This document shows positions 18,192 to 50,487 of a DNA stretch of 51,822 nt, piece by piece. The notes beneath the pieces were generated by a model. The model saw only the letters and a list, made by a program, of their open reading frames with translations, was not told where the DNA came from and searched no databases. Source of the stretch: Fragilaria crotonensis (taxonomy: Eukaryota > Bacillariophyta > Fragilariophyceae > Fragilariales > Fragilariaceae). The position numbers were made by a program, and so were the translations under genes. The first letter of the stretch is position 1. Each line of letters begins with the position of its first letter. The stretch lies in assembly GCA_022925895.1 (NCBI GenBank), contig JAKSYS010000447.1, forward strand, positions 1 through 51,822, given 5' to 3'.

Positions 18192-18575
18192 ATGCCATCA
18201 TCAAGCACTCCTCCAACACAAATGGTTAACGGAAGTATCAGTCCTGTTGTTTCCGTCCGTCTTCCGGTGCAAAGCACCGAGATCAACCCCCTTGATCCTA
18301 TTCGAGAACTTTTCACTTTCTCACCATTCGGCCGTTGCTGCCGTCAATGCAATGCTCACAACAAGATTAACATGGAAGAGAGATCCATCCGCGATCACCT
18401 TAAAAAACATCACATGGACAGTAGAATGTCTACAGTCCGTTCCGTGTTGATCGAATTTACTAAAAGAGTACTCGTTGCGAAGGAATCCTGCACCATAGAG
18501 CCGTACCGTAGTGACAAAAAAAACTTATACAGGATATTCCTGCACTTGCGGTTCCGTCTTTCCGAGGAAAGATAA
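18192..18575 (+). pseudogene. H1 helicase gene: N-terminal zinc-finger region
   Basis: The frame starts with ATG 18192. At residues 44-75 it has FTFSPFGRCCRQC, then RSIRDHLKKHHMD: a CxxC followed by H...HH, a finger with a long loop. The frame breaks in an A8 run near 18519. In the next frame (18511-18710) the protein continues TYTGYSCTCGSVFPRKDNALRHC...KLCCGRY, a second Cys/His finger. Both fingers recur with the same text in element H3 (46525-46941) and H4 (39018-39377), so this is a conserved N-terminal domain, probably DNA binding. It resembles the Cys/His domain that precedes telomere-linked RecQ-type helicases in fungi. Confidence 0.6.
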
Positions 18576-18677
18576 TGCTCTTCGACATTGCAAAAATATG
18601 GGTTGCAATGAGTTGCAGCTGCAGAAAGTTGAACTCATCAAACTCTGCTGTGGTCGCTACATATCAGAAAATCAAGT

Positions 18678-19092
18678 TTGCTTGTTTTTCGAGGAGAGAC
18701 CAGCATCACACAGCAGTTTGATTATTGTGAAGCGAGAGGTGTTCTACAACCCTTTTTTCTGCAGAGAGAGAAACATGATCATACATACACTCATATGTAC
18801 ACCCCTCTTATAACCCAATGCGGTGGCGCAATGCGTTTTGCAATGAAAATTGAAAACGACTTTAAAGCCATCCATTCCCCACCAGATTCACTCAATGAGT
18901 CTATGTTGATAAAGATCCACGAGCTTGCCGAAATTTGGCTCCTGAACTTTGCCCAAATGAACATCATGATGGTCCCAGGCAATCTCCGTGCAGGATTACA
19001 AGAAACATTTGAAGGTGGAGAAGTCGATGATGTGTCACAACGCTGCACTTACGCGATGCAACATGATCCATCAACTTTATTTATTGAACTCA
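18678..19092 (+). pseudogene. H1 helicase gene: middle segment before the SINE-like insertion
   Basis: This frame continues the gene after another frame change near a T5 run at 18685. The text QQFDYCEARGVLQPFF, then LAEIWLLNFAQMNIMMVPGNLRAGLQE, has close counterparts in H3 (EQFDYCQARAALLPFL; NILMVPGNLRAGLQNF). The gene is interrupted at 19093 by a 207-bp insertion. The reading then resumes at 19300 with LIELKKLL, after a 14-bp duplication. The function of this segment is unknown. Confidence 0.6.
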
Positions 19093-19299
19093 CGTGAAAG
19101 TATGCGGCGTGCAAAAGACAGGGCTATACAAGGTGTACGATCATTGCATTCTTATTTTCCGTCCATGTCTTAGGCGTTACGGCGTAAGAGAGCGTGTTAC
19201 TTGACAGTATTCGCACAGGATACTGTTGAGTCGTGTGAGTCGATTCTTCTTGTCTGTGAGGATAGCGGCAGCACGTAAAAAGATTTTAGGTTTTTTTTA
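19093..19299 (+). mobile_element. Short SINE-like retroposon inside H1
   Basis: The 207-bp insertion is flanked by the perfect 14-bp duplication ATTTATTGAACTCA (19079-19092 and 19300-19313). It ends with GCGGCAGCACGTAAAAAGAT, TTTAGG and a T run, the tail shared with 827-905 and 30508-30578. It has no coding capacity. A GTCGATTC motif about 70 bp from the end resembles part of a pol III B box. A target duplication of this length with a homopolymer tail fits target-primed reverse transcription by a LINE partner. Confidence 0.75.
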
Positions 19300-19313
19300 A
19301 TTTATTGAACTCA

Positions 19314-21046
19314 AGAAGCTCTTATCTTTTGCATACCGACGAGGCCTTTTCGTCGCCAAACCTTTGGACCACCAAGATGCATTTTCAATCCCATACTTTT
19401 TGAAGGATCTGATGCTTGAAATCCCATCGTCAGTCCAATATCATCCCCTAGCCGTTGAGTTCTGCTTGATGTCGGGATTCCGTGTTCAAAAGGCAGATTC
19501 CAAAATCAAAATGATCTCATGCGACACTGTTTCCTCTGTTATTGCAAAGGTAGCATCAGTCTTGAAAGCTGCAATTTGTTCAGTTATAGTATGCTCATTC
19601 TCAGAAGACACTTTCACGATACACGGTCCCGCACTTATCACAACAGTACGAAAATCTCACGTTCTCCATAGTCTGTCACCGATGCTCCGTCAAATTCGCG
19701 AAATGCACCGTCGACTACCCAAACGGAGGAAAACAACACTCGATGAAACTGGAAACATTGTGGTAGATCAGTTTTCGTTTCTTTTTGACGACTGGTCCAA
19801 AATTGTTCCTAAGACTGTGCTCTTGATGAAGGTTGCGGTTTCAAATTTGGCAGATGGGATCTGGTGGGAGCCTGTGGTTGATGTTCTTACCGATATAAAT
19901 GTTCACGCGGATCGTGACACGGGTGACCTTTTTCTAGCAGATGTGAGTCCCGTGTGGAAACAAGGTTCTCTTTTTCCAATGGATCATTTTGACCATTTCA
20001 TGGCACTTTTAGAAATGTCTTTCCACGGTTTCGGCGGGGGCTCTGCTCGGTTGAACGAGCTTCGTGAACCTACAATGTTCAACTGCCTCTTCACAAACAG
20101 TACGGTGTACTACACACTGTCTTCCTTGAAAGGTTTCAACAGCTCATCACGACGCACTAGTAAGGAAATCGAACGCAAGCTACCACCCGTTATCTCCAGA
20201 TACTTCCTATTGTTTCGATCTCTGATCCAAACAAAAGCAAGTATGTTCACCAGCAACAGCAACATTAACAATCTCATGTTCCCTACAAGGGCGAATCCTT
20301 CTGCCATCCGACCGTCACACATCATCCGAGATCTCTTTTCGCTATCGTCAATTCCAAACATGACACAAGTTCGACACTTTTGGGCTGGTGTTTCCAACTT
20401 CGTGACCGGTGGTCACGACAAGCCCAACCACTTTTTGTCGTCGAATTCCATGGGAGCTTCCAAAATGGGTCATTCTTCATCAACTCATTCCTTTGCCTAC
20501 TCCAGCCAGCAAGTCGGTTCAGAAGAGGCACACTTCAACTCCTATCATTTTGCAATTGGTGACACCTCGTATCAAATATCCAAATTCACCGAAAGACTTT
20601 CCTTGGCAGACCTTCGCAATGCAGTGCGACTTCGGTTTCCAAATTTGGTAAGTCCGAGTAATGGTCACGACCACTATTTGTGTGTGCAGCAAAAAGAGTT
20701 GGTTGAGTTTGGGTACAGTGCCGAGTTCAAGAACAAGCCACAGCATTGCATTGCTCTACTCGCTCCAGGTGAGGGAAAGTCGGAGTCCTATATAATTCCA
20801 ACTATCGCTCGAAACCTTGCCAACCATAAATCAAAGACAATCATCCACATTTCACCATTTCGATTCTTGGCTGGGTATCAGTTTGCAATGGCATCAGCGG
20901 CATTCGAGATGCGTAATGGTCACGACCATTATTTGTCTGTGCAGCAGAAAGAGTTGGTTGAGTTCGGGTACAGTGCCGAGTTCAACAACAAGCCACAGCA
21001 TTGCATTGCTCTACTCGCTCCAGGTGAGGGAAAGTCGGAGTCCTAA
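19314..21046 (+). pseudogene. H1 helicase gene: middle and start of helicase domain
   Basis: Open from the insertion to 21046; a first ATG is at 19364. The long middle part (YFLKDLMLEIPSSV..., FGGGSARLNELREPTMF, SSLKGFNSSSRR) matches H3 but no family I can name. The helicase domain begins with VQQKELVEFGYSAEF (Q-motif-like), LLAPGEGKSESYIIPT (Walker A) and IIHISPFRFLAG (motif Ia). The Walker A region is then repeated in frame (20915-21046). The stop TAA is supplied by the next element's CCTAAGG. Motifs II-VI are absent, so no active helicase can come from this copy. Confidence 0.7.
20660..21046 (+). repeat. In-frame tandem duplication of the Walker A region
   Basis: The segments 20660-20792 and 20915-21046 are near-identical and offset by 255 bp (85 codons), so the frame is kept. 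Both encode QQKELVEFGYSAEF and LLAPGEGKSES. Differences are a handful of substitutions. Confidence 0.85.
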
Positions 21047-21394
21047 GGAGAAGGGGCTGTTTCTAGATAAAAAGTCTTCAAGTATGAATGCTTTTACTTG
21101 ATACCACTGGTGGTGTTTTTATTTAGGATCACATACCACCGGTGTAGATTTTCGTACCACTGGTGGGCCTTTTTAACTAGCAATATATACCACTGTTGGT
21201 ACCGAGCTCCATACTACCAATGCACTGTGAACAATCCTGGTAATGCTTTTTTATGTAGACAATTTTTCAAAAAACGAGTGAGTATTCCATTGGGACTCGC
21301 CATGCAAAAAATCTATCACACCCCATCATCATCATGTCTGCAAAAACAAATGCAACTATTGAGGTTGAACCAGTAATGCTTTTCACTTTCTCTC
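21042..21394 (+). promoter_or_regulatory. CCTAAGG-family 5' fragment c with TACCACTGGTGG iterons
   Basis: It starts CCTAAGGAGAAGGGGCTG, with TAGATAAAAAG as a TATA-like box. Iterons TACCACYGKTGK start at 21102, 21134, 21155 and 21188 (spacing 32, 21, 33). An ATG at 21333 opens SAKTNATIEVEP-type coding identical in kind to H3, but the copy is cut after TTCACTTTCTCT, where element d begins. It is about 353 bp long. Confidence 0.7.
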
Positions 21395-22476
21395 CCTAAG
21401 GGGGCGGGCTGATTTCTATATAAAATTATTTCGGGGATAGATTTTTTTACTTGATACATCCGGTGGGATATTACTATGGGGAAACTTGCATCGGGTGTGT
21501 CTTTTTCAGCATTGGGTGGTACAATTACAAAGGAAGGGGTTACATCGGGTGGTACAGAGCTTTGCCCATAGAGGTCAGTATGTTGCCGTCATCATGTCAT
21601 CAGCAGCACAAACATACATTGCGGCACCATAATCATCCACAACAAATGAGTTCTTGAATTGGTAAGTTTTGTTTAAGCGTCTGCTTATAAACATTCTTTG
21701 CAGTGGCTGCAACGCTCTCAATAATGCTCGTTTCAGATTTGTAATTGGAGCATATTTAAGTTAAGAAACGGTCGGAAGTATGAAATTGGTCGCCATTCTT
21801 CACGTCTTAACAACGACCGAAAACTCCCAGATCCGGCTTGCAAATCGTTGTTTCCTTCGTCACCTGGTAAGTCTCGTTTCAAAGTCTTCTACTAACTAGT
21901 ATTCTTCGTATTGTAATGTACTCAAAAACGCTCGCTTCAGATTTGTAATTGAGTGACTGGGTGTCATGAAATTCATACTCCAACCACGACCGAAGATTTG
22001 GTTTCCGGTTCGCAAATCGTTGTTTCGTTTCAAAGTCTTCTACAAACTATTCTTTGTATTGTAATGTGCTCAAAAACGCTCGTTTCAGATTCGCAATTGA
22101 GTAAATTTTAGAAAAGTAATGGTTGGAAATGCGAAGTTGGGTGTCATGAAATTCATGCTCCAACCCCAACCGAAAATTTGGTTTCCGGTTCGCAAATCGT
22201 TGTATCTTTTGTCACCTGGTGCATCTCCTTTAAAAGTCTTTTACTTAACATTCTTTGTATTGTTTTATGATCACCAGCGCTTGTTTTAGATTTTTAATTG
22301 AGTAATCTCTAGCAAAGTTATGGTCGGAAATGCAATGAGGAGCATTGTTGGAGGTTCCGATTGTAGTAACATGCCGTGGCATCTCATACAAGTGAGTAAA
22401 AAAAATTCAGTACCGGTAGATAATCGGATAGTTAACTTTCTTACTGAATTAAGTCAAAAACCACTGAATTCAGTTA
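21395..22476 (+). mobile_element. CCTAAGG-family element d, leader plus tandem intron-like units
   Basis: It starts CCTAAGGGGGCGGGCTG with TATATAAAATTA as the TATA-like box. Iterons TACATCNGGTGG start at 21455, 21487, 21508 and 21541 (spacing 32, 21, 33). From 21655 to 22300 lie about four tandem units of about 200 bp. The clearest contains GTAAGT (21867), CTAAC and a TTCAG end (21940), which looks like a 74-nt intron. No long frame. Same plan as element a. Confidence 0.6.
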
Positions 22477-22735
22477 CCTAAGGAGAAGGGGCTGTTTCTA
22501 GATAAAAAGTCCTCAAGTATGAATGCCTGGTGGTACCGAGTTCCATACGACCAATGCAGTGTGAACAATCCTGGCAATGCTTTCCATTGGACTTGCTGTA
22601 TAAAAATCTATCTCACCCCATCCTCATCATGTTTACAAAAACAAATGCAATTGTTCTTGTGGATCACCCACCAGAGTTTGAACCGGTAACGCTTTTCACT
22701 TTCTCTCCCTAAGGCAAAGGGGTTCGAACTGGTTA
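22049..22735 (+). repeat. 687-bp segment duplicated at 30579-30669 plus 37921-38517
   Basis: The segment covers the end of element d, leader e and the first 28 bp of leader f. A direct copy lies immediately right of the poly(T)-tailed element that begins at 22736, and that copy is split by the copia element. I see about one indel (an extra T near 38022) between the copies, so the duplication is recent. Confidence 0.85.
22477..22735 (+). promoter_or_regulatory. CCTAAGG-family 5' fragments e and f
   Basis: Fragment e (22477-22707) has the CCTAAGGAGAAGGGG start and TAGATAAAAAG box but has lost most of its iterons: TGGTGGTACC near 22527 remains. Its ATG is at 22628 (FTKTNAIVLVDHPPEFEPV) and it stops at TTCACTTTCTCT, the same cut point as fragment c. 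Fragment f begins CCTAAGGCAAAGGGG at 22708 and is cut at 22735 by the poly(T)-tailed element. Confidence 0.65.
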
Positions 22736-23090
22736 TAAATTTACTCGTATCGTTTCTACGTACATAAGAGCACATCTAAAAGGATGAACGAAGGGTTTCC
22801 AGAACTCTTTCGTATCGACTCGACCATTGCCAACGGGACTTTATACTCCCACAATGATGCCAAAACAAACACAACAAAGAATGAGCGGAAGGGAGGCGCA
22901 AAAACTCATCGGTTGGATGGTGAATTTTCACCATCATCGTTCAATTCCTACACACTCTCATGGTATTCTCTCTACACAGTTGATCCACCCATTGTTGCAG
23001 CGAAATGTTCAGGAGTGAACGATACTGTGCACCTACCTACTACTGGTACCGTGAATGTACCTACCATGAGCAGCCTTCCTACCGTGCACC
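22736..23090 (+). repeat. Poly(T)-tailed repeat element X, left part
   Basis: This left part of an element of about 940 bp ends in the first units of the CCTACCGTG-type minisatellite (23030-23090), where a tyrosine-recombinase retroelement has inserted. The remainder is 29994-30578. The frame 22784-23245 (MNEGFPELFRIDSTIANG) is open across it but has no recognised motif. Confidence 0.6.
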
Positions 23091-23247
23091 TGGCATGTCC
23101 GAAGATCGGGAAAGGACGGGCAGTCGCCATCAGACAGACGAACACGAGACACAGACAGACGAACACCACGACACAACACAACACAAGATACGAATTGCTC
23201 ACAATCCGAACGAACTCGAATCGACAAAGACACTACTCTAGTTAATC
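23091..23247 (+). repeat. Split direct repeat A1
   Basis: Nearly identical to A2 (29453-29607), from TGGCATGTCCGAAGATCG to CTCTAGTTAATC. The only difference I see is a 2-bp length change in GGGAAAGG versus GAAAGG. Confidence 0.88.
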
Positions 23248-23284
23248 TGGCCTCTCCCCCGACCCGACTTGAACCACAGACGCA

Positions 23285-24957
23285 ATGGAGGGGTCAGACG
23301 ACGCTCGCTCACCGATGACGATGACCTTGACGTGGTTGGACGTTTTCAGGAAGCTCGACCAGTGGGAGGTCGTCGAAAAGCTCAGCGCTTTGAATTCGAA
23401 GACGAACTCGGTCAGTACAAATTCTACAGGATTCGTACACTTGTGCTCTCCGGAAGTCGCCCACCTTATGGTAAACACGCACGGAGTCATCCGACTCTTT
23501 CACCACTTCCACCACGACGCTGACGATGGACTCAACGACGGGACGAACGCCCTTTGGGCACTGATGGGGCTGGCGGCTTCGCCGCCGCCATGGCGGTCGA
23601 CACGAAACAGGTCGTAGAGCGACACATCGGAACGCCTTTTGATTGGTCGAGGATGCTCTCGTGGAATTCTACGTCGGACGTACTGGCGGCGATCAATGAA
23701 TCTCTGACGACACGTGCCCAGGTGTCAGGCGTCAGCACCGGAGCCACGCGCGAAGCCGAGCCAGCCGGCACCCTGCCGACTGCAACCAGAGGACGACCGA
23801 AGAAAGGAAGCGGAACGAAGCACCGGGCGAAGCCAAGCAAGCCAGTCGAAGCGAGCGAGGACGACACAGACGACGTCACGGTCGTCGGGTTCACGATGAA
23901 GCCCACCGTCCCGGTGCCGGCCTTCATCGCAGCCGCCATCATGGACACTTACGTCACCGCGCCAGAGGAGCTCGCCCTACTGATCGTCAACGCCATTAAA
24001 CAGAGAGCGAGCGAGGACCCAGACCCGTCCAGAGCAACCATCCGCGCGGAGGCAGCCTCTTACATCCCGCGGTGGGTCCTCAGCGTAGCGGTAAACTCGA
24101 GGAGGACCCGGGACCGACAAAGCGAGGTGGCGGCATCAAACGCATACTCCAAACGATCGGACGAATGGGCGAAATCGCTACACCTCAAGCATCTGGCGGT
24201 CAGAGCTAGGAGCCTCATTCGGACGGACGACCATGCCAGCACGCCAGGACGCACAGAGGACGCCATTCGAAACCTGTCAACGTTACTGGAGCGACAGGCA
24301 GCAAACGCAGCGACCTCGTCCCCCCAAACGTCGAAGACAGGCTTTGACTCTTTCCCGCCGTCGACGAAACGAATGGTCCTTTTCGTGTCCGAAAGGGACG
24401 CCGACAGGATGATTCGCAGCCGCCCGGTCCAGTCTTTCTCGGACATCCTGACGCTTAGCAACGTGGCCTACGTACAAAACCACATCCACCACTTCTTGAG
24501 GAACACCAAAGGTCGAGACGCGTTCATTCCCATGGGCTTCTGCGCCGCAATCCGCACCGCTTCTTTCACGGCCGACACACCTGACCGGCCAGGGGCCTTC
24601 AGCCTCTTCTGTTGCGGTCCCCAGACGTTCGCCCGAGCAGCAGCGATCGGGCGAGAAGCCTCTGATCACGCCAGCACCCTTGTGCAAATGCAACTCAAGA
24701 CGACCGACACGACCACGGGCTTCTCGGAGAAGGACATCAAGAGCATGACAAAACTCAACTTCACGGTGCCGAAAGATTTTCACGAACTCGCGCGGCTTAT
24801 CGAGAACATGAGCGGAGTGCTGGAGCTCCTTTCGGAGCCAATTCCCGCTCACACACATGTTGGACGAGTGGAGCCGTTTCCTGACCAGGGCGGTCGGCTC
24901 CACACTGGCGACGCCCGCCAGCTAGCGCACGCTGACCCTCAGCCGCGTGCAGGTTAG
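23285..24957 (+). pseudogene. DIRS-like Gag, N-terminal and central part
   Basis: Two frames make up this part: 23285-23617 (VFRKLDQWEVVEKLSAL...) and 23554-24957 (467 codons), joined by a frame change near 23570. The central part is helical with an acidic, polar linker (EASEDDTDDVTVVGF). Near its end the sense shifts again at about 24850: the other frame reads MLDEWSRFLTRAVGSTLA and runs into 24947-25483. Assignment as Gag rests on its place upstream of RT and on the zinc finger that follows. The role would be assembly of the retroelement particle and RNA binding. Confidence 0.6.
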
Positions 24958-25483
24958 GTTGGTTCATCGAAAACGCATGCAACAATACCTAGTTCTCTGC
25001 GCTGGAGTCGAACACGAGGACGAGATCAACCCAGCACTCCTAGAATTCAGGTCCACCCGGCAGCAGTTGGAGGACGGCGCCTTTGTCTTCCCGGCCTGCG
25101 ACTTCCTCAAGGAGCGGCTGGGACGTGGAGTCGACCAAAAGGGCGACTCGCAGCCTGTAGCCGCCGCCGGGAGCGCTCGAGCCGGACGTCGCGGGCAACC
25201 CGCGGACGCAGTCACAAACCCACAGCAGGACCTTTTCCCGAGAGACGCGAACGACACTTGGCAGGTGTTCCTCGATCACGTCCGAAGTGGAGGACCGATC
25301 CCGAACATGTGCTGCAGGTGGCACCTAAACGGGAAGTGCGTCAAGAGCTGTTTCTTGAGCGCCTCGCACGTCGCCCTCACGACCGAACAGACGACCGCCG
25401 TACGAGCGTGGATAGAGCAGTGCCGGGCGCGCATGCGCCGCCCTCGTCCGACGCGACGCCGCCCAGCAAGAAAACAAAATTAG
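24947..25483 (+). pseudogene. DIRS-like Gag, C-terminal zinc-finger part
   Basis: After the frame change this 178-codon frame carries MCCRWHLNGKCVKSCFLSASH, spacing C-x3-H-x4-C-x3-C-x5-H. That is the finger found at the C terminus of many DIRS-type Gag proteins and is expected to bind nucleic acid. A basic tail (RMRRPRPTRRRPARKQN) follows, then a stop. A Pro/Arg-rich stretch, readable in several frames, bridges to the RT gene at 25963. Confidence 0.65.
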
Positions 25484-25962
25484 GACCCTCTGCATCTGCT
25501 TACTTCCAGCCCGCCTTCGTCGCACAGCCGTCGCAATGGGCGTTCGACCAGGAACGGTCGACGGCCGAGTTCCACAACAGACGCCACGTAGGACGCCCCG
25601 GACTTTATCGGAATCTGCCGCCCGAGACAGTCCCGCGGGAACCCACGCGCACGAACCTTCTCGCCCCGCCACGTCGCCGACGCCCCGCATCTCGCCAGCC
25701 CGCGACGACCCGTCACGAAACGAAGTCGGGCCTGAGCGCTACGCTCCCGCCCTCGACTCGCCACCGACCGACCACCCGTGGCGCGCGCATTGTCGCCCGG
25801 AGACGCCCACGACGCGCCGACATCAGCCCTCGCAGACACGCCACGCCCGCTTCCCGGTAAGTTCCCATCGTTGGTGCCATTGCCGACGATCCCGCTCCCG
25901 AACGTCGACTCGCCGTTCCCACGACTCCCGAACCACGCCTGGCCGATGCCCTTGCCACTATT

Positions 25963-27327
25963 TTGCACTCCGGCCAACCGCGCACCCACGCGACGGAGTT
26001 TCGCTTCGACTGGACGCACGACGCCGCCCGCCACAACCTCGCGGTGCTCAAACGGTACGCCCTCGACCTCGACGCCGCCCTTCGGGCCCAGCCGTTCAGC
26101 GCCCTGACGCCGGGATCCGAGTTTCGCCCCACCGAACTTCTCGCCCCGCTCCTGTCCGCCCACCCCCTCTGGCCGCGTTTTCAGGAGCGCATCTCCGAAG
26201 GGGCCGAGTTCCCGCTTCGCGAGATCTCGGATTCTGACCGCCTCGCGGACGTGCGCGCCAACTTAGCTCGCGGCAATCACAAATCGGCCCGAGGCCACGA
26301 GGCAAAGTTGATATCCATGCTGAAGGACGAAGCCTCAAGGGGTTGGCAGCTACCACTGCCGCGAGAAGCCGCCTTAGAGATCAAGGGATGCGAGGTCGCG
26401 CCTCTGGGGATGGTCGCGCAGACGTCGATCGACGAGAAAGGAAATTCAATAGAGAAACTCCGACTGACACATGACCAGTCATTCAGCCCGAGCGGAGTGG
26501 CAGGACGAAGCGTAAATGAACGCGTGGACACATCCCAACTGACAGAAGCACGTTTCGGAAAAGCATTCAGCAGACTCATGTACCACATCTCGTTCCTGCG
26601 CCAACTATGGCCAGACGAGCCTATCTGGATGACGAAGGTCGACTGCAAATCCGCCTACAGACGAATCCATCTCAAAGCAGCCACAGCCATGAAGTCCTGC
26701 ACGAGTATCGACGACCTGCTGTTAGTGGCGCTGAGGATGACGTTCGGTGGAGCGCCAAACCCATCGCAATGGAGCGACGTGTCGGAGATGATCACGGACT
26801 TGGCAAACGACCTTGTCCGCAGGGACGACTGGGATCCGAGCGTCTACCACTCGCCGCACCAGCACCTCCTGGACACCGAAGGGGCAGTGGACAATGACAA
26901 AGGGTCGGTCGACAAAATGAGTGTTTTCGGCAAGGCGGACTACTTCGCAGTGAACTATCCACCCTACGACGACCTCCCTCGCTTCGACTGCTACCTGGAC
27001 GACATTTTTGGGGCCTTCAACCCCCGCGACGCAGAAAAGAGCGCTGCCGCGATCCCGCTGGCGCTCCACCTGGTCGGGAGGCCTTGCGACCCCGAGGTTA
27101 AGGAGACTTTTCCCAGAGACGATATCCTTGCGATCCCAAAGTTCCTGGCCGAGGCCAAACCATCCGAGAGGAAGATGATCCTCGGATGGATCGTGGACAC
27201 ACGCCGCTTCGTCGTCGCACTGCCTCACGATAAGCACATGAGCTGGACGCAAGCCGTTGACAGGATGCTGACGCACAGACATGCCTTCGTGACGACGAGA
27301 CCTAGAGACGACCCTCGGACGTTTTAG
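25963..27327 (+). pseudogene. DIRS-like reverse transcriptase
   Basis: The 454-codon frame contains the RT signature in order: WMTKVDCKSAYRRIHL (motif A, catalytic Asp), LRMTFGGAPNPSQWS (motif B), RFDCYLDDIFGAFN (motif C, catalytic Asp pair) and RKMILGWIVDTRRF (motif D/E region). This spacing is that of DIRS and Gypsy-like RTs. Translation drops out at 27327. A frame change at about 27298 restores DLETTLGRFSHAAYVIPYA, which joins the RNase H part. The start is uncertain because the preceding 480 bp are readable in three frames. Confidence 0.88.
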
Positions 27328-29607: not shown

Positions 29608-29695
29608 CCACCCACCCACACCTCCTCTCCTGGCCCGATGCCTAGGTTCATCGGCGCCCCTGGCGCCGGTTACCTCCTGGCCATGCTCTGCATGG

Positions 29696-37477: not shown

Positions 37478-37488
37478 TCGTAGACTTT

Positions 37489-37915: not shown

Positions 37916-37920
37916 AGTTG

Positions 37921-40059: not shown

Positions 40060-41487
40060 TCAAACTGCTATGTGGTAGACTAAACGCCGCTCGCCGCCTG
40101 CAAGTTTTTTCTCGTGCCGCATCCTCAGTGCTGTGTTAGCTCCTTTCGATGCCCTCAGCTTCTTGATGTGCGCTTCCAAAGCCTGACCAGATTTCATGCG
40201 TTCCTCTTCACTAGCATACACTTCAGGGATTTGCGAGGAAAGAATGCCTCTTCCCTTCGCCCTCCACGTATCAACTACTTGAGAAGCAATAAAGTCTCCA
40301 AAAGCGCTATCCCCACGCACGACTGCATCACATTGCTTTGCAATCTCGAAGGTCCCAAGAATCGCAATCACCTCATCTTTGGGTGTAGGCTCCGTAACAT
40401 GACGCATAAATTCTGCTTCTGTACCTCGACTTCGCGTCCGGTTGATCCAGTGCCAATTGATATGCGAATGGAATTCCCGCGCTTCGTCAATCGCGTTGGC
40501 GTCGTCCGTCAACAAAAATATATTGGACCCCGGTTGGCGGCGTTCCTTTGGGAGCTGATTGAGGTAATCAGATATTGGGTGATAGCCTCGAAATCGTGTA
40601 AACCTTTTTTTTTGAAGAATGACATCACCTCGTCGCACGTGCATCACAGTGCAGGATGCATTTGACGGAAACGGTGGCCTTTGATCGTCCACAAAATTCA
40701 CAACAGCTCGACGAATCCATTGCTGGCCCCGACTAAGGTATTGATACACCCACGGCCATTCTTTCACGTCACGCCGATGCACTGCCTTGTTACCTTGAAA
40801 TGCACGCGAATGATTGACCTTGCATTTTGTAATTGGGAGAAAGTAGCAATTGAGGTCTTTTGAGGCGCAAGTCGCGTTGGAGCCATCCCTTGCAGCAGCA
40901 TATTGCCACACCTGCTTTTCGTTGCCAGGGTTGCATTGTACAATCATTGGCTTTTGTTCCGCTAGGGCAGTTAACAAACCTTTCCCCAAAGCATTGAAAT
41001 CCGCACCCCATCCTGAGCTTATCAAGTTCTGCGGGAGCACCGTATCGCATTCTGTAGGAAACTGATTCCTATGCACTTTTCGTAGAAAATCCAACTTCTC
41101 TGGGTTGACTTCCAATTCGAAGCATTGATGTGTCGAATTTTGGTGCCCAATGACAAAATCAGGATGATGCGTCCACCATTCGTCAATATCGAACGTATCC
41201 GTATCCACGTCCCACCCCAAACAAAATCGATCGATACTGGCGTTCCGGATCTGCGAGATGACAATGCTTGCTGCGGCGTCGGCCGCTAGGGGCGACACTC
41301 CACTGGTGGATGATGTGAACCACCGTGGACTCTTGACACGATTAACCCGTGTTACTGCGTCTGGTCTCATTTGCACGTTCACGTTCCTAACCAGCTGCAT
41401 CATGGCCAGCATCACGGCGAACACTGATAAAATCGAGATGGCTACTTTGATAGGCCTGCATTTCGTCGCCCGCATCTTGAATGGCAT
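40060..41487 (-). CDS. GT23/FUT8-like fucosyltransferase, type II membrane protein
   Basis: The gene is a single intact frame. I chose ATG 41487 (MPFKMRATK) because the longer frame to 41568 starts with TTG. The protein is 475 residues: a short cytosolic tail, a membrane anchor (IKVAISILSVFAVMLAMM, about residues 12-32) and a luminal catalytic part. The nucleotide-sugar motif CTVMHVRRGDVILQKKRF...GYHPISDYL matches HVRRTD...HPIEEYM of alpha-1,6-fucosyltransferases. It is followed by NIFLLTDDANAIDEA and CDAVVRGDSAFGDFIASQ, where family members have the acceptor-side and Ser/Asp block. It should transfer fucose from GDP-fucose in the Golgi; the acceptor is not predictable. NST, NAT, NHS, NAS and NRT sequons support a luminal location. 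Confidence 0.78.
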   Translation of the reverse strand: MPFKMRATKCRPIKVAISILSVFAVMLAMMQLVRNVNVQMRPDAVTRVNRVKSPRWFTSSTSGVSPLAADAAASIVISQIRNASIDRFCLGWDVDTDTFDIDEWWTHHPDFVIGHQNSTHQCFELEVNPEKLDFLRKVHRNQFPTECDTVLPQNLISSGWGADFNALGKGLLTALAEQKPMIVQCNPGNEKQVWQYAAARDGSNATCASKDLNCYFLPITKCKVNHSRAFQGNKAVHRRDVKEWPWVYQYLSRGQQWIRRAVVNFVDDQRPPFPSNASCTVMHVRRGDVILQKKRFTRFRGYHPISDYLNQLPKERRQPGSNIFLLTDDANAIDEAREFHSHINWHWINRTRSRGTEAEFMRHVTEPTPKDEVIAILGTFEIAKQCDAVVRGDSAFGDFIASQVVDTWRAKGRGILSSQIPEVYASEEERMKSGQALEAHIKKLRASKGANTALRMRHEKKLAGGERRLVYHIAV

Positions 41488-41568
41488 CCTTTCACATTCA
41501 CAATTCACAGGCCACAAACTACCGGTACCAGGGTATTTTTGGATAAATAGGGCTATGGGTCTGTCCAA

Positions 41569-42600
41569 TGGGGGAATTCGATTTTGTTGTGAGTTGTGAC
41601 GTTGTGACCGCCAAACCGCTGACTATGGCTGGATGCATATTTTGGGTACACGAGGTAGCTCTACGTAGGCCTAGTATTAATTTTTTTATTTCCGACGTCA
41701 AAAGTATACCAAGGTTACGGTACAGCTACTGAATTGGTGATTCTAATCGGGTTGTCAGTGCAGCTTTTGTTCATCTAGCCGAAATAGACCCCAACTGTGG
41801 CAATGAAGAAGTAGCTAGTCTAGTCGATGTACAATATAATGTTCGAGAGTTTCAGAACCCGCGACGTGAGCGCCAGCGTGACGAGATCTGCACCAACAAA
41901 GCAAGGTAATGGCAACAAGATGGTGAGCAGTCATGAGTCATGACCAGGAGGAATGAGCCCACAGTCGAACACCAAGAAAGGGTATGCTGAAATCAAAGTG
42001 ATTCCATCTCATCCGCCATGCTCTTGATTGCCCGGCTTGTTGGATAAATATAGTGAGGTCTGCTTTAAAGAAAGCAGCATTATGATTGTACGCAACATGA
42101 TTGCAGGCGACCGCACCCAACAAAATACATCCGAGATGTGCCATAGTAGCATATTCGTTCAAATTTCTTGGCAGGGTGAGGCAGCCACTCAGAAAGTAGC
42201 ATTTGATCTTTCAATCAACACCAATCAATTTGAAGTTGTTGACAATTAGGTTTGTATTGGGCAGCAGGATTGTGTAGTTCATGCCAATCTTGTATGAGAT
42301 ATCTTGGCTGGTCATTGACATATCCTGACAAATCGAATACTGGCCAAGAAGTCCGGTTATTCAAATTGATATTGACATATATCAGCCAATTCTGTCTCTC
42401 CCGATTCATGAACTTGAATGGGCAGAGAATTGGCAACTTCTGGATAGGTTTTACAGCAAAATCTCGAAACTTGCGCACCACCGCCGTGTCGGGTGACAAA
42501 TGCAAGTGAAGGGCTCCCAGCGTCAAGAAGTTCCTCACACGCGGTGTCCATGACTCGAGTCCTGCAGGATGATGATGGGTGATTCCTTATCTCTTAGCAG
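41569..42600. other. Intergenic region, no supported gene
   Basis: A minus-strand frame at 42215-42538 (FRDFAVKPIQKLPILCPFKF...SWPVFDLSGYVNDQPRYLI) reads like protein but has no motif, and a second frame (42357-42551) competes. It could be a decayed gene. The rest, including the promoter side of the fucosyltransferase gene, shows nothing. Confidence 0.4.
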
Positions 42601-43491: not shown

Positions 43492-43777
43492 CCTAAGGAG
43501 AAGGAGCCGTTTCTATATAAAAAGTCTTCAAGTATTAATGCTGTTACTTGATACTACTGGTGGTGTTTTTATTTATTAGGATCACATACCACCGGCAGTG
43601 TTGATTTTTGTACCACTGGTGGGCCTTTTTAATTTGCAATATATACCACTGGTGGTACCGAGCTCCATACTACCAATGCAGTGTGAACAATCCTGGTAAT
43701 GCTTTTTTATGTAGACATTTTTTCAAAAAAAGAGGGAGTATTCCATTGGACTTGCCATGCAAAAAATCTATCACATC
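43492..43777 (+). promoter_or_regulatory. CCTAAGG-family 5' fragment j
   Basis: It starts CCTAAGGAGAAGGAGCCG and has TATATAAAAAG. Iterons TACYACYGGTGG start at 43552, 43587, 43611 and 43644; two short insertions shift the usual spacing to 35, 24, 33. It is cut at ATCTATCACAT, before the ATG, by the next element at 43778. Confidence 0.65.
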
Positions 43778-43960
43778 CCTAAGGAAAAGGGGTTCAAAGT
43801 AGATAAAAAATCCTCAAGTATATATATTTTTACTTGAGGCCTCCGGAGCAATTTTATTTAGAGATTTTAGCTCCGGAGCCAATTTTGAACCTCCGGAGCT
43901 GACTGTTTACTTAATGAAATGTGCATTCGGAGCTACACAGGGAGGCACAGAGCTCATCGT
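43778..43960 (+). promoter_or_regulatory. CCTAAGG-family 5' leader k with CCTCCGGAGC iterons
   Basis: It starts CCTAAGGAAAAGGGGTTC and has AGATAAAAAATCC. Iterons with the palindrome CTCCGGAG start at 43840, 43870 and 43890, plus ATTCGGAGC near 43924 (spacing 30, 20, 34). No helicase coding follows; the sequence passes into the TGCTGAC minisatellite. Confidence 0.65.
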
Positions 43961-44097
43961 GTGTAGTTTTCTGGAAGGTCCGGCAATACACGCTTAGTCG
44001 TGAATCAAGGTCGAATTCACGCTGGCCGGAGGCGAACATCATTTCCGTTCTGTGTCTGGCTGGTGCTAAACTGGTTATGCCAGCGTCATCGTCGTTT

Positions 44098-44363
44098 TGC
44101 TGACACTTGCTGACGAAAAGACAGATCTGCTGACATCCGCTGACAAAAAACGAATTTGCTGACGTCTGCTGACGAAATTCGAATCTGCTGACATTTTCTG
44201 ACATATGATGACGAAAACGAGTTTTTTCCAGTACAAAAGCTACGGTGATGCTGACATCTTCTGACGTTTGCTGACGAGAATCAAGTTTGCTGACATTTGC
44301 TGACGAAAAGCAAAGCTGCTGACATTTGCTGACGAAAAAGAAATCTGCTGACATTTGCTGAAC
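44098..44363. repeat. Degenerate minisatellite, TGCTGACATTTGCTGACGAA
   Basis: About eight units of 28-30 bp, each with two or three CTGAC words, are interrupted by an irregular unit near 44195-44250. The units vary too much in length and spacing to be a CRISPR array. The minus-strand frame 43911-44354 is an open repeat, not a gene. Confidence 0.8.
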
Positions 44364-44647
44364 CTTGCCAGCTCGAATGATACGACAAAGATCCTAACAA
44401 GCTCTCATCACGCCGGCCGGTCATTGGCTGGCGCGCACATCCTTAAGGTAAATCTGTTAATCGCGAAACGTGCTTGGGCCGGACCTTCCTGGTAATAACT
44501 TCTTGCGTAGCCACTTTTCCACCAAAGAAGTGGAGTATGACATCCAGTAATCTAAATACGTACAGTGTCATACCGCTGTAACGTACAATACTGTAGTTTT
44601 TAAACGAAATACAGTTGATTCATCATACTGTTGTCTGCATTTGTCAC
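44364..44647. other. Spacer, no gene seen
   Basis: Nothing recognisable apart from ATACAGT/TACTGTAT-type short motifs near 44565-44635. Confidence 0.5.
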
Positions 44648-44679
44648 ATACAAGTACCTACTAGTACAAGTACCTACTA

Positions 44680-45043
44680 CCGTATTTCACGGAGATTTGT
44701 ACCCCGCGCATTCCTGTACCCACCCCTCCCAAAATTATGCACATTTTCGAACCACTCGACTCAAAAATGAACGTCCATTTGTTATCCTTTGGCAGAAAAA
44801 TCCTGGCATTTCACCGAAACGTCAGGTCATTTGAATTCCACTCGATGAAAGCTAGTTATGCATGTATAACTCTAATGATCAGAAGACGAGTTTAAATATT
44901 CATTTTCCTTTTTTTCCGTAGTCAGCCCGACATAAATTTTTCACGGATTCCCTTTATCCATCTGACATTTTCGATGAAAATTTGGTGGGATTCCGGAACC
45001 CCTCGATGAACATTTGGTCGGTACAAATCTCCGTGAAATACGG
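44680..45043. mobile_element. MITE with 24-bp terminal inverted repeats and TA target duplication
   Basis: The 364-bp element starts CCGTATTTCACGGAGATTTG (44680) and ends with the exact complement (45020-45043). TA flanks both sides (44678-44679, 45044-45045). Removing it and one TA restores CCTACTAGTACAAG, the unit of the tandem array it sits in. It has no coding capacity. A TA duplication points to mobilisation by a Tc1/mariner-type transposase. Confidence 0.9.
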
Positions 45044-45368
45044 TAGTACAAGTACCTACTAGTACAAGTACCTACTAGTACAAGTACCTACTAGTACAAG
45101 TACCTACTAGTACAAGTACCTACTAGTACAAGTACCTACTAGTACAAGTACCTACTAGTACAAGTACCTACTAGTACAAGTACCTACTAGTACAAGTACC
45201 TACTAGTACAAGTACCTACTAGTACAAGTACCTACTAGTACAAGTACCTACTAGTACAAGTACCTACTAGTACAAGTACCTACTAGTACAAGTACCTACT
45301 AGTACAAGTACCTACTAGTACAAGTACCTACTAGTACAAGTACCTACTAGTACAAGTACCTACTAGTA
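45044..45368. repeat. 16-bp tandem array, TAGTACAAGTACCTAC, about 20 copies
   Basis: Perfect or near-perfect head-to-tail copies without spacers. Two more units lie left of the MITE (44648-44679). No spacers, so not a CRISPR. Confidence 0.95.
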
Positions 45369-45497
45369 AAAAAACTAGAATTCAAATTAACGTGCTATCG
45401 CTACGCCCAATACGAGAAGACGTTCGACCCGCACGGATAGGCACTGTACTGGAGTATACAGTAGCTATCGTCGCTTGTTCAACCTGAGAAGCCACCT

Positions 45498-46233
45498 CTA
45501 GCGCACCCCAAAGTAGTCTCGAATCGACCTCATACCAGTAGTCGCTCTCCGCTTAACTTGGCGATAGCTCTCGCGAAAGATCGGGGCATTCATTGCCAAC
45601 CAATTCTGAGTAACCCACAAGGAATGCTGTTCATGTTCCGTCGCATCAGCGTGTAATAACTTCTGAACATGTGTTTCATAAAGTGTGCGGTGTCGGTATA
45701 TCTCCGAGAGTTGTCGCCTCACCCTCGCGAGTAGTTGTCTCCAGCCTGGTACGTTCTGCCATGTCCGTGCACTTCGATTCCTTTGTTTCCACAACTTATA
45801 CCACTGTTTCCACAAAGTAAAATCACGCTCGCTTGCCATGTTGAACTTTGCCCTGCCGTCGTTTCTTTGCCGTGTTGAGTCAAATGATATTGTCGCTGTT
45901 GAGATTCCCAAGCCGCACTAAACCGCCTGAGTAGTACTTGTGCCCATCCGATCTTGTTTTGTTGAAGAACAATTTCGCAATGTAGGGTGATACCATCTGG
46001 ACAAAGGATGATGTCGTTGTCGGAAGAATCAAACCATTGACGCAACCCATCCAGCATTAATTCACACAGCATCGGTGATGTATTCGAGTGAATGAAGGAG
46101 TCTCGGAGTCGCGCCAGGAGCTGTGTCCGCCATTCGCCACGAGTGCTGTGCTGACATCGGATGATGTGAAAATAATCCTCGTCGAGGGAACCGCACATCG
46201 CGCACTTACGATTCCCCCCGTCGAATTTGTTTG
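45498..46233 (-). pseudogene. Retroelement protein C-terminal fragment with CxxC...HxxxxC finger
   Basis: Two frames make up one protein. The first (45719-46233, open at its left end) gives NRKCAMCGSLDEDYFHIIRC, a CX2C...HX4C group, then QQNKIGWAQVLLRRFSAAWE. The second (45498-45840) gives FTLWKQWYKLWKQRNRSART, then EHEQHSLWVTQNWLAMNAPI. The change of frame is near 45820. The finger recalls the zf-RVT region after LINE-type reverse transcriptases, and the overall pattern resembles a protein common in diatom retroelements. The upstream part is cut off exactly by the CCTAAGG start at 46234. Confidence 0.5.
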
Positions 46234-46524
46234 CCTAAGGAGAAGGCCCTGTTTCTAGATAAAAAGTCTTCAAGTATGAATGCTTTTACTTGATACCACT
46301 GGTGGTGTTTTTATTTAGGATCACATACCACCGGTGTAGATTTTTGTACCACTGGTGGGCCTTTTTAACTAGCAATATATACCACTGGTGGTACCGAGCT
46401 CCATACTACCAATGCACTGTGAACAATCCTGGTAATGCTTTTTTATGTAGACAATTTTTCAAAAAAAGAGTGAGTATTCCATTGGACTCGCCATGCAAAA
46501 AATCTATCACACCCCATCATCATC
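46234..46524 (+). promoter_or_regulatory. CCTAAGG start and iteron leader of helicase element H3
   Basis: Starts CCTAAGGAGAAGGCCCTG with TAGATAAAAAG. Iterons TACCACYGGTGK start at 46294, 46326, 46347 and 46380 (spacing 32, 21, 33), followed by a degenerate TACTACCAATGC. About 130 bp further on, CATCATCATCATG gives the ATG at 46525. This is the intact version of the leader in fragments c, e and j. Confidence 0.72.
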
Positions 46525-46941
46525 ATGTCTGCAAAGACAAATGCAACTATTGAGGTTGAACCAGTAATGCTTTTCACTTTCTCTCCCTTTGGCCTATCCT
46601 GTCAGCAATGTACAAACAATTTCACTATTCAGTTGGATACAAGATGCATCTCCCGTCATCTGAAAAAACATGGTATGGACAGCAGCATTGCTACTGCTCG
46701 TTCTCTTTTCAACACATTCCAAAAAGAACTTGAAGTTGTGAAGGCGTCTGGCACAATGGACCAATACCGAAGTGATATGAAAACTTACAGTGGTTATTCC
46801 TGCCTCTGCGGTCAAAATTTCAATTCAAGAAAGGATAGTGCACGTCGACATTGCACAAGGTCAGGTTGTGATCCTTCTAAATTGCTGAAGGTCAACCTCA
46901 TCAAGCTCTGTTGTGGTCGATATGTATCAGAATCTCGTTAA
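46525..46941 (+). pseudogene. H3 helicase gene: two-finger N terminus
   Basis: ATG 46525 opens SAKTNATIEVEPVMLFTF, then SPFGLSCQQC and CISRHLKKHGMD (first finger). TYSGYSCLCGQNFNSRKDSARRHC (second finger) and LIKLCCGRYVSESR follow. The frame stops at a T7 run near 46945; the next frame continues LSFFEDQPPRIREQFDYCQA. The spacing of both fingers matches H1 and H4. Likely role: recognition of specific DNA, possibly the element's own iterons (inference). Confidence 0.65.
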
Positions 46942-48840
46942 GTTTTTTTGAGGATCAACCACCGCGTATCAGGGAGCAATTTGATTACTGCCAGGCAAGA
47001 GCGGCTTTGCTTCCCTTCCTTCCACCAAGGAAAAGCAAGATCATACGTACACTACATGTACACCCCATCATTGCTGGTTGTGCTCGTCCACAAGACTTTG
47101 AAAGAAAGATTAAAATGACTTCATTTCTATCCATTCTCCACCGAGTCAAACTCTTGAGTCAGTTCTGATCAAAATTCATAACCAAGCTGAAAATTGGCTA
47201 TTAAATTTTGCACAGAAGAATATTTTGATGGTGCCAGGGAATCTCCGAGCTGGACTTCAAAATTTTGATCGTGGTGAAGTCAATGATGTTTCACAAGGAA
47301 AGACCTATACAATGCAGCATGATCCAACCAGCTTACTACCTGAATTGAAGAAGCTTCTATCCTATTCGTTCCGCAAGGGCCTATTTGCATCAAGTGGTTT
47401 TGATGAAAGTGATCAATTTGCAGTTGCATATTTTTTGAAGGATTTTTTGCTTGAAGTTCCACCATCAGTTGCCACGCATCCCTTTGTGGTGGAATTCTGT
47501 CTCATGTTTTGTATCCGCTCAGGAATCAAAAATCTCTCTGATATCCTGTGACACGGTGTCGTCTTTATTCGCCAAGGTAGCATCGCTTCTGAAAGCAGCA
47601 GTATGCTCCGTCATCTGTTCTTTTTCAGAGCAGTCATCCACTCATTCTGGAGATTCGCTTGTGTCATCTGTTCGCAAGGCTCCTGTACTACATATTCTTT
47701 CACCAATGGTTCGACAAATAAGAGGCACGAACGACTACCAAAAGGCAAAAACTATGATTGACTCAGGTGGAAATATCATTGTTGACCAACATTTCCATAC
47801 GACATCTGGTCACGCATAGTTCCCACAGCTGTCACCTTGATGGGAGTCATTAACTCATTTGGCTGATGGTTCCTGGTGGGAGCCTGTGGTTGATCCATCA
47901 ACATTTGTCAGAATCCATGTCATGATGACACGGCAGACATTTCATTGCTCGATGTCACCCTGTTGGAATGTTGGACTTTCTTTCCTTGTTGATCAGTTGG
48001 ATTGTTTTATGGCACTGTTGAAGATGGCATTTCATGGTTTTGGAGGAGGATCTGGCAAGGATGAGAGAGTTGACAGAACCGACTATGTTCCACTGCGTGT
48101 ACAGCAATGATGCTGTTTATTACTCCATGACGTCACTGAAGGGTTTTAACAGTTCTTCGTCGTCGGTTCAAGAAAGTCGAGCGAAAACTCCCTCCTGTTA
48201 TCACTCGATACTTTTTGTTGTATCGATCTCGTCAATGCGAATGTAAATCTTTTGAGCAATCCGATTCCTTTGATTTTTCCAAAGCGGAGAACACCTTCAA
48301 ATTTTGGTGTTCCAAATGTGATCAGGAATATTTTCAATTTGGATTCATCACCCGATATGCGGCAGATTCGACAGTTTTGGGCTTGTGTATCGAATTTCGT
48401 TACTGGTGATGATGAGGATGGAAAGGCCTTTTTGACGTCCACGGCAAGCTCTGTGGCGGCATCAAAAATGGGGCACTCCAAGATGACACATGGTGTTGCT
48501 TATTCAAGCAAACGACTCAGGGCTGAGGAATCACACTTCAATGCTTATCACTTTGCCATCGGGGACACATCATATGAGATGTCAAAAACCAATTGTGCAA
48601 ACTCTCATTGGGTGATATTCGGATGGCAATGTCACCGGGTACCGAAGGCTATTTCATCAGATGGTCACAACTATCTTTCATCTCAACAGAAGGAACTTGT
48701 TGAGTTTGGATATGGTTGTCACGATGACTCAATGCAGATGCAACAACATTGCTTTGACTTCTCCCCTGGTGAAGGAAAATCTGAAGTTTTCATTATTCCC
48801 ACCATTGCAAGACGGATCGGCAATCAAAGAAGCAAATGAT
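46942..48840 (+). pseudogene. H3 helicase gene: middle part up to Walker A, in many frames
   Basis: This section is readable piece by piece beside H1: 46911-47168, 47225-47551 (NLRAGLQNF...AYFLKDFLLEVPPSV), 47451-47819, 47859-48110, 48252-48839. The last piece has SSQQKELVEFGYG (Q-motif-like) and FSPGEGKSEVFIIPTIARR (Walker A). At least six frame changes occur, far more than in the helicase core that follows, so this copy is old. No named domain is seen between the fingers and the helicase; that part may be specific to the family. Confidence 0.6.
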
Positions 48841-49689
48841 AATTCATGTGTCGCCCTATAATTTTTGGCTCTCTACCAATCCAATAATGCAACCACTGCT
48901 TTTGACAAAGTCGGCTTTGGAACAAGCATTTCCACTTGCATCTTCACTGGCGGGGACATCAATGTTGGATTGTTACCCGATGAGCTTTCCAACAAGGAGG
49001 ATCTCCCAAACATTCTCTTCAACCTGGACGCTCTCTTCAACTTGTTCACGTTTCATTTTGAAACATTCAAGTCATGGATTGACGTCATGGATAAGATTGT
49101 TATTGATGAGGTCCATACTTTTCTTACAGAATTAAGCTTTCGGGAGAAGTATCAGGTTTATTGGAGACTTGCTGTTCTTGGGATTCCGATTGTGGCATTG
49201 AGTGGATCAGTCCCTTTGTTCATTCTTTCTAAATTTGCAATGCGACTTTGTTTGTCTCGTGACAAACAGATGAATGACATCAAGATTATTCACGGCGGTC
49301 CTTTTGGACATTTTCCTCATGGATTCCGAATCAAATTTTCAGTCACACCGAGATACATACACCAAGTTGCCAGTTTTGCTATTCATCGTGTGCATGAGGG
49401 TGTGGGAGCAGTTCATATCTTTGTTGTTGACAAGTGTGATGGAGAACTTCTTGAACAGCGCATTACATCCAAATCTGTAAATTGTGTCTTCATATCGTCT
49501 GATACCCCCGCAGAAGATTTGAAGGCTGTTGCTAAAAAATGGGGCATGGGAGGATTCGACATCCTGATATCAACCTCGATTGCATTAGTTGGGAATGAAA
49601 ACCCTGCTTGCCGATCGTTGTTTGCGCTGGGTACCTGTTCGATGCTATGCAGGTTATTCAAGGGTTTGGTCGCCTTCGACAGTACATGA
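48841..49689 (+). pseudogene. H3 helicase gene: SF2 helicase core, RecQ-like
   Basis: Frame 48865-49689 carries motif II (KIVIDEVHTFL, DEVH), motif III (PIVALSGSVP), IV-like VHIFVVDKCDG, and motif V (GGFDILISTSIALVGNENPA). Motif VI, VIQGFGRLRQYM, appears in the next frame at about 49652-49690. Motif Ia (IIHVSPYNFWL) lies just before, in another frame. DEVH, the motif V text and QGxGRxR fit RecQ-related SF2 helicases and the fungal telomere-linked helicases. They do not fit the SF1 helicase of Helitrons. The activity would be ATP-driven 3'-5' unwinding, if a functional copy exists. Confidence 0.75.
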
Positions 49690-50487
49690 GAATTCCTAGC
49701 GGCCAAATCTTCTTTGCGGCACCAGAAGCCTTGTCAAACGAAGAATCAAGGACGATGAACAGCGATTCACAAGGCTTCTGAATGAAAACCTTGTATCTGA
49801 GGGGATCATGCACTTTTAGACAAACAATGACTTCGGGCGGTGTACGTGACTGGACCATGGATGCAGCATCAGAAACCGTGACTGTGCATTGAAGGTTATG
49901 TCACAGTCATTTGGAAAGAGATGGAGAATTGCGGTGCTTGCCATTTTGTCGCCACATTCCAACCCATAATGCTCAGGCTGAGGCCACCAAACGGATGGCA
50001 ACTGAAAGGCGAAACGAACAAGCGACTGAACGAGTCCTTCAAAAGCTTTGTGTTGTCTTGCGGCAACAAGACTTATTGTCGTGGAACTCCTTATTGAATG
50101 GGAAGGGCAGCAAATCACTGCCTGAGAATAAAGGTTGTTGTTTCCTCTGGAAAACTGTTATCAATGCGGTGTGAGTTCTCATGACCGCCAGCTTTGTTTT
50201 GATAAGACCTATTTGAATAATGTGGCTTGTTGTGAGTGTTGGGTTTTCAAAAAGGTACCAGGCTCTAAACATCACGCAAAGACAGATTGTGAAGTAAAGG
50301 GTAGGTTGAGGCGGTTGTTGTCACATCATTTTGTTAACACCAAGGTTAAGGGATCATTCAAGGACTTCCTTGAGGGTATCTACACTTCCTCGACCTCGTT
50401 CTGTGAGTTCATGGCTGTGATTGATAGTACTTACAATACAAAAATAATTCTATTTAGAGAAGAGCTAAGTTGTTGGAAGGCACTGTA
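49690..50487 (+). pseudogene. H3 helicase gene: C-terminal Cys cluster
   Basis: After motif VI the text RIPSGQIFFAAPEALSNEES continues and then decays. Frame 50135-50488 is open again: NCYQCGVSSHDRQLCFDKTY, then NVACCECWVFKKVPGSKHHA and TDC, a Cys/His cluster likely to bind zinc. LRRLLSHHFV...FKDFLEGIYTS and a stop follow. Several frame changes lie between 49700 and 50135. Zinc-binding C-terminal modules also occur in RecQ-type helicases, but this one is not a close match. Confidence 0.5.

Follow-up and report, generated by a model that had tools for sequence, protein, structure and literature searches.

The gene family and its copies in the window

The window analysed here is the entire contig C389 (51,822 bases) of the diatom Fragilaria crotonensis, taken from an assembly of 62.1 Mb in 881 contigs; it carries three copies, H1, H3 and H4, of one multicopy gene family, each of them broken, and the family protein joins a Cre-like tyrosine recombinase to a superfamily II (SF2) helicase. 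The genes lie in units that open with 5'-CCTAAGG followed by type-specific short iterons, and that are stacked in one direction. The three copies were found where an earlier note on this DNA had put them, and its description of an element-encoded multicopy protein, with N-terminal Cys/His fingers, a C-terminal Cys cluster and element boundaries, was borne out. H1 and H3 can be read side by side, as that note had it, with 67% identity over 18309-19070/46570-47326 and 64% over 19381-20222/47416-48230; H4 shares the N terminus of H3 at 67.5% identity.

H3 (46525-50487, + strand) has the Cys/His fingers, the recombinase, the helicase and the Cys cluster, and it is disrupted by frameshifts; it belongs to the most telomere-ward unit of the window (46234-51822, +), which comprises the CCTAAGG start, H3 and a convergent TET-like gene, and runs to the contig end. 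H1, with its ATG at 18192, lies in a type A unit (17909-21041, +; 98% identical to the C84 copy) cut at GGAGT|CCTA; the gene has an internal 133-bp repeat and is cut at 21041, just beyond motif I, hence it is devoid of motifs II-VI. H4 stops after about 140 residues and is assigned, by its distance, to a probable unit with a variant start at 38700-39377 (+).

The helicase core of H3 gave at least 49 match pieces across the assembly, and the middle region of H1 at least 83. Natural stop-free frames exist elsewhere, on C578 (1254 amino acids), C84 (1260) and C490 (1324), and the protein was therefore studied without any sequence repair; in the C578 and C84 copies, the final ~120 residues are in a different frame. 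As for selection, dN/dS is 0.12-0.17 among diverged copies (dS 0.9-2.0) and 0.38-0.70 among near-identical ones (dS 0.05-0.10), the latter being expected if many young copies decay; these ratios indicate that the protein is under purifying selection over long times. Relatives amount to 34 proteins in environmental protein collections; a protein search with the most distant of them returned only itself among the 7,996 candidates listed, and none was found in the viral contigs scanned.

Helicase and recombinase domains

Regarding the helicase, its core occupies approximately 48700-49690 of H3, from motif I (GEGKS) to motif VI (QGFGRLR). In the C578 copy, Pfam DEAD matches with E 7.3e-10, over the cut-off, and Helicase_C with E 5.5e-4, under its cut-off, while in the C84 copy Helicase_C is just above it. 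The earlier note had placed this core in SF2, close to RecQ; the first part is confirmed by these two Pfam matches, and the second is only faintly suggested by sequence comparison, given that the TIGR01389 recQ match is weak (E 0.042) and confined to residues 1149-1202, in the zinc region, and that RecQ_Zn_bind appears in one of 26 members with a weak E of 1.3; the source name "superfamily II DNA helicase RecQ" is carried by 5 of the 34 relatives.

The middle region, of 560 residues, is a Cre-like tyrosine recombinase, with the Cre/Xer-type fold and invariant residues of the catalytic type. All 18 of the best re-aligned structures are chains of Cre, Xer, Flp, topoisomerase IB or protelomerase; Foldseek without VIA-align gave no recombinase match. 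R521, K548, R627, H662 and Y671 are invariant in 26/26 sequences and keep the catalytic order R, K, R, H/W, Y, with R-K and H-Y spacings that are presumably those of Cre. Tyrosine recombinases have a His three positions ahead of the second Arg; the protein has T, R, I or V there, and this position varies in topoisomerase IB too. In H3 the domain covers approximately 47180-48540, as deduced from C578 residues about 220-672. The earlier note had seen no transposase, nuclease or reverse transcriptase (RT) in the element, leaving its movement unexplained, which was wrong; the middle region, where it had advised looking for a nuclease domain, does hold the fold of a strand-cutting enzyme.

Unit starts and their direction

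The start CCTAAGGGGGCGG had 60 matches versus 2 for the reversed control, and CCTAAGGMRAAGG had 53 versus 5; the broad pattern CCTAAGGNNNNGG was not enriched, with 199 matches versus 648 in its reversed control. After the heptamer, 43 of 47 distinct starts have three to five copies of a type-dependent 8-nt word (one mismatch allowed, counted without a null); these words differ by start type (TACCACTG, TCCGGAGC, TACGTCCG and others), and one might guess that they are binding sites. The sole CCTAAGG on the minus strand of the window is at 38700-38706, where the plus strand reads CCTTAGGGGGCGG (CCTTAGG); it looks like a variant plus-strand start upstream of H4.

Overall, 113 starts were listed on 36 contigs, 99 of them on the 22 contigs having at least two, and in all 22 the listed starts of a contig are on a single strand; some of the lone matches on other contigs probably arise by chance. 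Four contigs (C23, C490, C592 and C754) open with telomere repeats, a mixture of CCCTAA and CCCCTAA, and their 17 starts (3, 2, 6 and 6, respectively) all point toward the telomere. Telomere-pattern matches occur on other contigs too: C427 has two arrays, neither at its first bases, and no listed start, and C71, C320, C411 and C438 have one match each. On contigs of known length, only 63 of 88 starts point toward the nearer contig end; contigs are broken up by the assembly. On C490, C754 and C592, which open with telomere repeats, the distance from the contig start to the end of the helicase gene is 5.9 to 9.5 kb, and other copies are on contigs without listed terminal telomere repeats.

Two further ideas about the starts were set aside. 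The start was not taken for a relic of a telomere repeat, as a telomere lying in the reading direction would have CCTAA on the strand opposite to the one where CCTAAGG has it. A conserved subterminal hairpin is not claimed, because a best-of-many search, run with no null, gave a perfect 7-bp stem for only 22 of the 47 distinct starts. As a separate observation, the telomere repeats of C23, C490, C592 and C754 are an irregular TTAGGG/TTAGGGG mix with extra variants.

Joins between units and the loss of downstream remainders

At least 60 upstream bases are available for 56 starts, and for 22 of these a second copy (at least 93% identity) shows the uninterrupted continuation; C592:13728 and C84:82872 matched each other and were left out, so that 20 joins were counted. 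The uninterrupted continuation begins with C in 20/20, with CC in 18/20 and with CCT in 13/20, compared with 3.9% CC and 1.3% CCT at shifted positions of the same join sequences; the two non-CC joins are C592:16548 (CATTTG) and C754:15168 (CGGAG). Cutting and rejoining of DNA at a short core would be expected of a tyrosine recombinase; what is seen directly is the CC(T) preference of the join sites.

Some sites, like CCTTTGG, are used repeatedly, and CTCTC|CCTTTGG precedes units of different start types, both in the window and on C588. Moreover, 14-base stubs, CCTAAGGAGAAGGC, single or double, stand ahead of starts on C389, C783, C588 and C754; they fit repeated joining at CCT, since one subtype, uninterrupted at 46234, reads CCTAAGGAGAAGGC-CCT.

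If a unit inserts into an older one, the remainder of the latter is expected downstream; no cut-off remainder was found in 25 testable joins, eight of which (on C592 and C754) were searched through to the telomere and the others over only 0.5 to 31 kb. Seventeen joins gave zero downstream matches, and in the other eight the matches read as independent full copies (their upstream context matches too), tandem repeats or weak partials; nested two-ended insertion is disfavoured by this result. Two truncated helicases serve as examples, one ending near residue 389 (C592:14300) and the other near residue 200 (C754:12075); the upstream flanks that were read have no common right end. C776, considered as a reciprocal product, turned out to be an internal tandem duplication. 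Separately, a 177-nt tandem repeat at 8644-9146 of the window has the same sequence as the uninterrupted form of the C783:4070 join.

Shared blocks running toward the chromosome end

An alignment of C490 with C754 covers 10,023 positions at 99.59% identity; it starts exactly at CCTAAGG (C490:10243, C754:10445) and stops at C490:247 and at C754:433. On C754 this leaves about 6 bases before the telomere array, and on C490 the array is separated from the block by some 130 bases of other sequence. Upstream of the block, C490 has a truncated helicase and C754 an unrelated repeat. Likewise, the window and C578 (from 30202) are 98% identical over 5.67 kb that start exactly at CCTAAGG in both and reach the contig end. 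C588 and C783 have a multi-unit block in common, from the first CCTAAGG of that block; what lies upstream of it differs between the two, and so does the unit that comes after the 14-nt stubs. The earlier note, right about the element boundaries, had missed both the one-direction stacking toward the telomere and this running on of the shared unit to the subtelomere in C490/C754.

Different contigs share 49 segments of at least 400 bases and at least 95% identity. An edge cuts off 22 of them; in the other 27, CCTAAGG stands at the left edge of both copies in 10 (not all independent), of one copy in 1 and of neither in 16.

Partner genes

The gene convergent to the recombinase-helicase encodes a TET-like dioxygenase in 9 of 14 units and an SRA protein in 2 of 14. 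The dioxygenase has the double-stranded beta-helix TET fold and HxD...H, its best Foldseek match is CcTet of Coprinopsis, and its relatives in environmental protein collections number 93, including one from the diatom Seminavis robusta. In the window, this 2-oxoglutarate/Fe(II) dioxygenase gene is broken (50821-51803, minus strand), and a 63-nt tandem repeat of 4.2 copies (50479-50740) lies between it and H3; the earlier note had overlooked this second gene behind H3. A third kind of partner gene, also convergent to the helicase, is present at L054:2286-5953 (C754) and L015 (C490); the C754 one has no match in Pfam, and in the PDB only two unrelated ones (E 0.21 and 0.42). Its HFD...HC motif, spotted by eye, suggests another 2-oxoglutarate dioxygenase.

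A proposed mechanism of chromosome-end replacement and its rivals

From the observed anatomy (boundaries, direction, site preference, absent remainder and fold) we infer the chemistry that follows. It appears reasonably probable that these are telomere-bounded mobile units that replace chromosome ends through recombinase-made joins between CCTAAGG and CC(T) sites. The full unit would consist of CCTAAGG, iterons, the telomere-ward recombinase-helicase gene, the convergent TET-like or SRA gene, subtelomeric repeats and the telomere. The recombinase would cut CC(T) on the recipient arm and CCTAAGG on the donor, and join the two; the donor chromosome end would thus move onto a new arm, the old end being lost or exchanged. 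The helicase would probably open the sites or drive copying to the telomere, in a manner resembling break-induced replication, and such copying would explain the multiplying copies. The probable role of the TET-like 5-methylcytosine dioxygenase and of the SRA protein would be to oppose cytosine methylation in the stacks. A join made in the wrong direction would leave a chromosome dicentric or acentric; that only same-direction joins keep a single centromere would account for the uniform telomere-ward reading of the starts. That all this amounts to a new class of selfish element, namely a site-specific recombinase-helicase fusion that replaces chromosome ends, has edges set by a DNA sequence and by the telomere, and clears its own silencing by means of a TET-like enzyme, is about an even call.

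The main rival, which we regard as unlikely, is host-driven break repair with a passenger gene: microhomology-mediated break-induced replication would copy distal subtelomeres, as in yeast Y' elements, the helicase gene would ride along or assist, CCTAAGG would be no more than a fragile or origin-like spot, and the recombinase domain would act at other places, if at all. Several observations favour it: telomere-ward one-ended copying and short microhomology fit break-induced replication with template switching, and the serial 14-nt stubs resemble repeated switching. In addition, Y' elements amplify by recombination in telomerase-negative yeast survivors, and fungal chromosomes share similar subtelomeres with RecQ genes (PMC10532341, PMC4522978). 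Generic microhomology, however, does not predict a single 7-nt left end across many unit types, nor the CC(T) preference, and host repair would not explain why recombinase-type residues are invariant in a protein that has long been under purifying selection.

A Crypton-like transposon with two ends, whose circle would insert at CC(T) in other copies and whose right ends would later be deleted, is improbable, even if it shares with the Fragilaria element the tyrosine recombinase, targets often within other copies, a stramenopile host (oomycetes and a diatom for CryptonS) and a short common core at the join, comparable with the direct repeats of 5 or 6 bp at the termini of CryptonS elements (PMC3212892). 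It is at odds with the 25 joins in which no remainder of the interrupted copy was found (eight searched through to the telomere, the others over 0.5 to 31 kb), with the lack of a common right end among the upstream flanks that were read and with the uniform direction of the listed starts on each contig; moreover, the Fragilaria element differs from Cryptons in its fused SF2 helicase, its one defined end and its telomere-ward stacks, and the main text of the Crypton paper (PMC3212892) never uses the word "helicase". The earlier note had named, as grounds against its own reading, a known transposase domain that would assign the element to a described superfamily. This applies only in part: the domain is a known one, but an insertion of the Crypton type, two-ended, bounded by short terminal direct repeats and leaving the flanks intact, was not seen. 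Very improbable is a retroelement or other RNA-templated terminal element, primed by the 3' end of the chromosome and lacking an RT of its own. Drosophila HeT-A lives at and attaches to chromosome ends in head-to-tail arrays, and the Terminons of rotifers form head-to-tail arrays attached to chromosome ends as well (PMC6431247), so that one fixed end, one variable end and head-to-tail stacks at the chromosome end would be accounted for; these are retroelements attached by their 3' end, whereas the Fragilaria element codes telomere-ward, which would require a template antisense to the helicase. No RT match was found in the proteins of the recombinase-helicase family, the RVT_2 matches of the window belong to separate Copia-like open reading frames (ORFs), and a recombinase fold is present instead.

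Relation to known systems

The Fragilaria element can be compared with the fungal telomere-linked helicases and the yeast Y' elements, which are multicopy SF2/RecQ-like helicase genes adjoining telomeres, in full and truncated copies (PMC4522978, PMC7473861): 13 copies, 7 of them full length, are reported in one source (PMC4522978) and 19 gene models in another (PMC7473861), and fungal subtelomeric RecQ-like helicases have been known since at least 1998 (reference in PMC7473861). Compared with them, the Fragilaria element adds the Cre-like recombinase, the fixed CCTAAGG start joined at CC(T), and the TET-like/SRA partner; Ustilago UTASb is said to bear OrsD, and no OrsD match was found in 26 members. 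How subtelomeric RecQ-like helicases spread is, to our knowledge, not settled, and a hidden tyrosine recombinase with a defined join site would supply a testable mechanism; the fungal telomere-linked helicases may be relatives with an unnoticed recombinase domain. Among the open-access papers listed in literature searches, none on a recombinase-RecQ fusion at telomeres was recognised.

Other transposons resemble the Fragilaria element in single traits. Academ elements have a DDE transposase with inverted repeats. The Pfam matches of the 26 members include no DDE domain, and the scan of the window gave no inverted repeat of at least 100 nt; the likeness is that eukaryotic DNA transposons of this kind are reported with a RecQ helicase (PMC3627910). 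Helitrons combine an HUH Rep nuclease with an SF1 helicase, whereas the Fragilaria helicase is SF2 and Rep is absent from the Pfam matches of the 26 members. Fungal TET/JBP genes are linked to KDZ transposons, which likewise pair a mobile element with a TET-type dioxygenase; in Fragilaria the mobility enzyme is another one, and the dioxygenase is convergent to the recombinase-helicase. Each component is related to something known, be it fungal telomere-linked helicases and yeast Y' elements, Cryptons or TET enzymes; we consider the combination new as a system, with a mechanism that we infer.

If true, site-specific chromosome-end replacement by a DNA recombinase would be a further route for telomeric DNA to reach a chromosome, beside telomerase, retroelement addition and homologous recombination, and the telomere-bounded unit a new way for an element to spread. 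The TET/SRA partner genes point to an element that directly contends with the methylation of cytosines at chromosome ends, and the environmental relatives of both proteins suggest that the element extends beyond one species.

Other units and neighbouring sequences of the window

The remaining units are all on the plus strand. A type A stretch with the start CCTAAGGGGGCGG covers the 1,057 bases to the next start (16838-17894), its first 198 bases being 83% identical to 17909-18106; a 14-nt type B stub (CCTAAGGAGAAGGC, 17895-17908) comes next, with the H1 unit starting directly after it. Past H1 there is a type B unit cut at CTCTC|CCT within its first codons (21042-21394; 98% to 46234-46588), a stretch with another start type (CATCGGGT iterons, 21395-22476), and a diverged type B unit, cut at CTCTC|CCT too, whose uninterrupted form is known at 74% identity only (22477-22707). 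The latter is duplicated with its flanks at 38259-38489, and is followed by the first bases of a CCTAAGGCAAAGG unit (22708-22739), which diverges after 22739 from its twin at 38490, where the unit continues (38490-38699). Further on, a type B unit cut at ACATC|CC (43492-43777) precedes a type D start stretch (TCCGGAGC iterons, 43778-46233), which extends to the next start, has no helicase match and contains 29-nt and 16-nt tandem repeats.

A block of retroelements interrupts the stack, flanked by a 607-nt duplication (22134-22739 and 37915-38521, 99.7%) of unit joins, either genuine or created by the assembly. Within the block, a set of G+C-rich plus-strand ORFs at 23091-29993 has at its end a Phage_integrase match (28427-29257) that is weak, its E of 9.5e-4 falling short of the Pfam cut-off. 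Direct repeats flank this set in the order A1 (23110-23247), B1 (29156-29453), A2 (29470-29607) and B2 (29696-29993), each pair being identical; this split-repeat order is presumably that of Ngaro/PAT-type tyrosine-recombinase retroelements, and the element is probably young. On the minus strand, 30670-37915 is a Copia-like element (RVT_2 at 31670-32938) with 415-nt terminal repeats, which are 100% identical and thus mark a recent insertion within the stack. Another Copia-like RVT_2 ORF (14400-16837, minus strand) reaches the CCTAAGG start at 16838 and was possibly also cut by end replacement.

Finally, two minus-strand sequences are ordinary-looking: a gene at 5769-7184 for a WbsX-type glycosyltransferase (E 1.3e-36), and an ORF at 40060-41619 that is weakly fucosyltransferase-like (E 0.0047).

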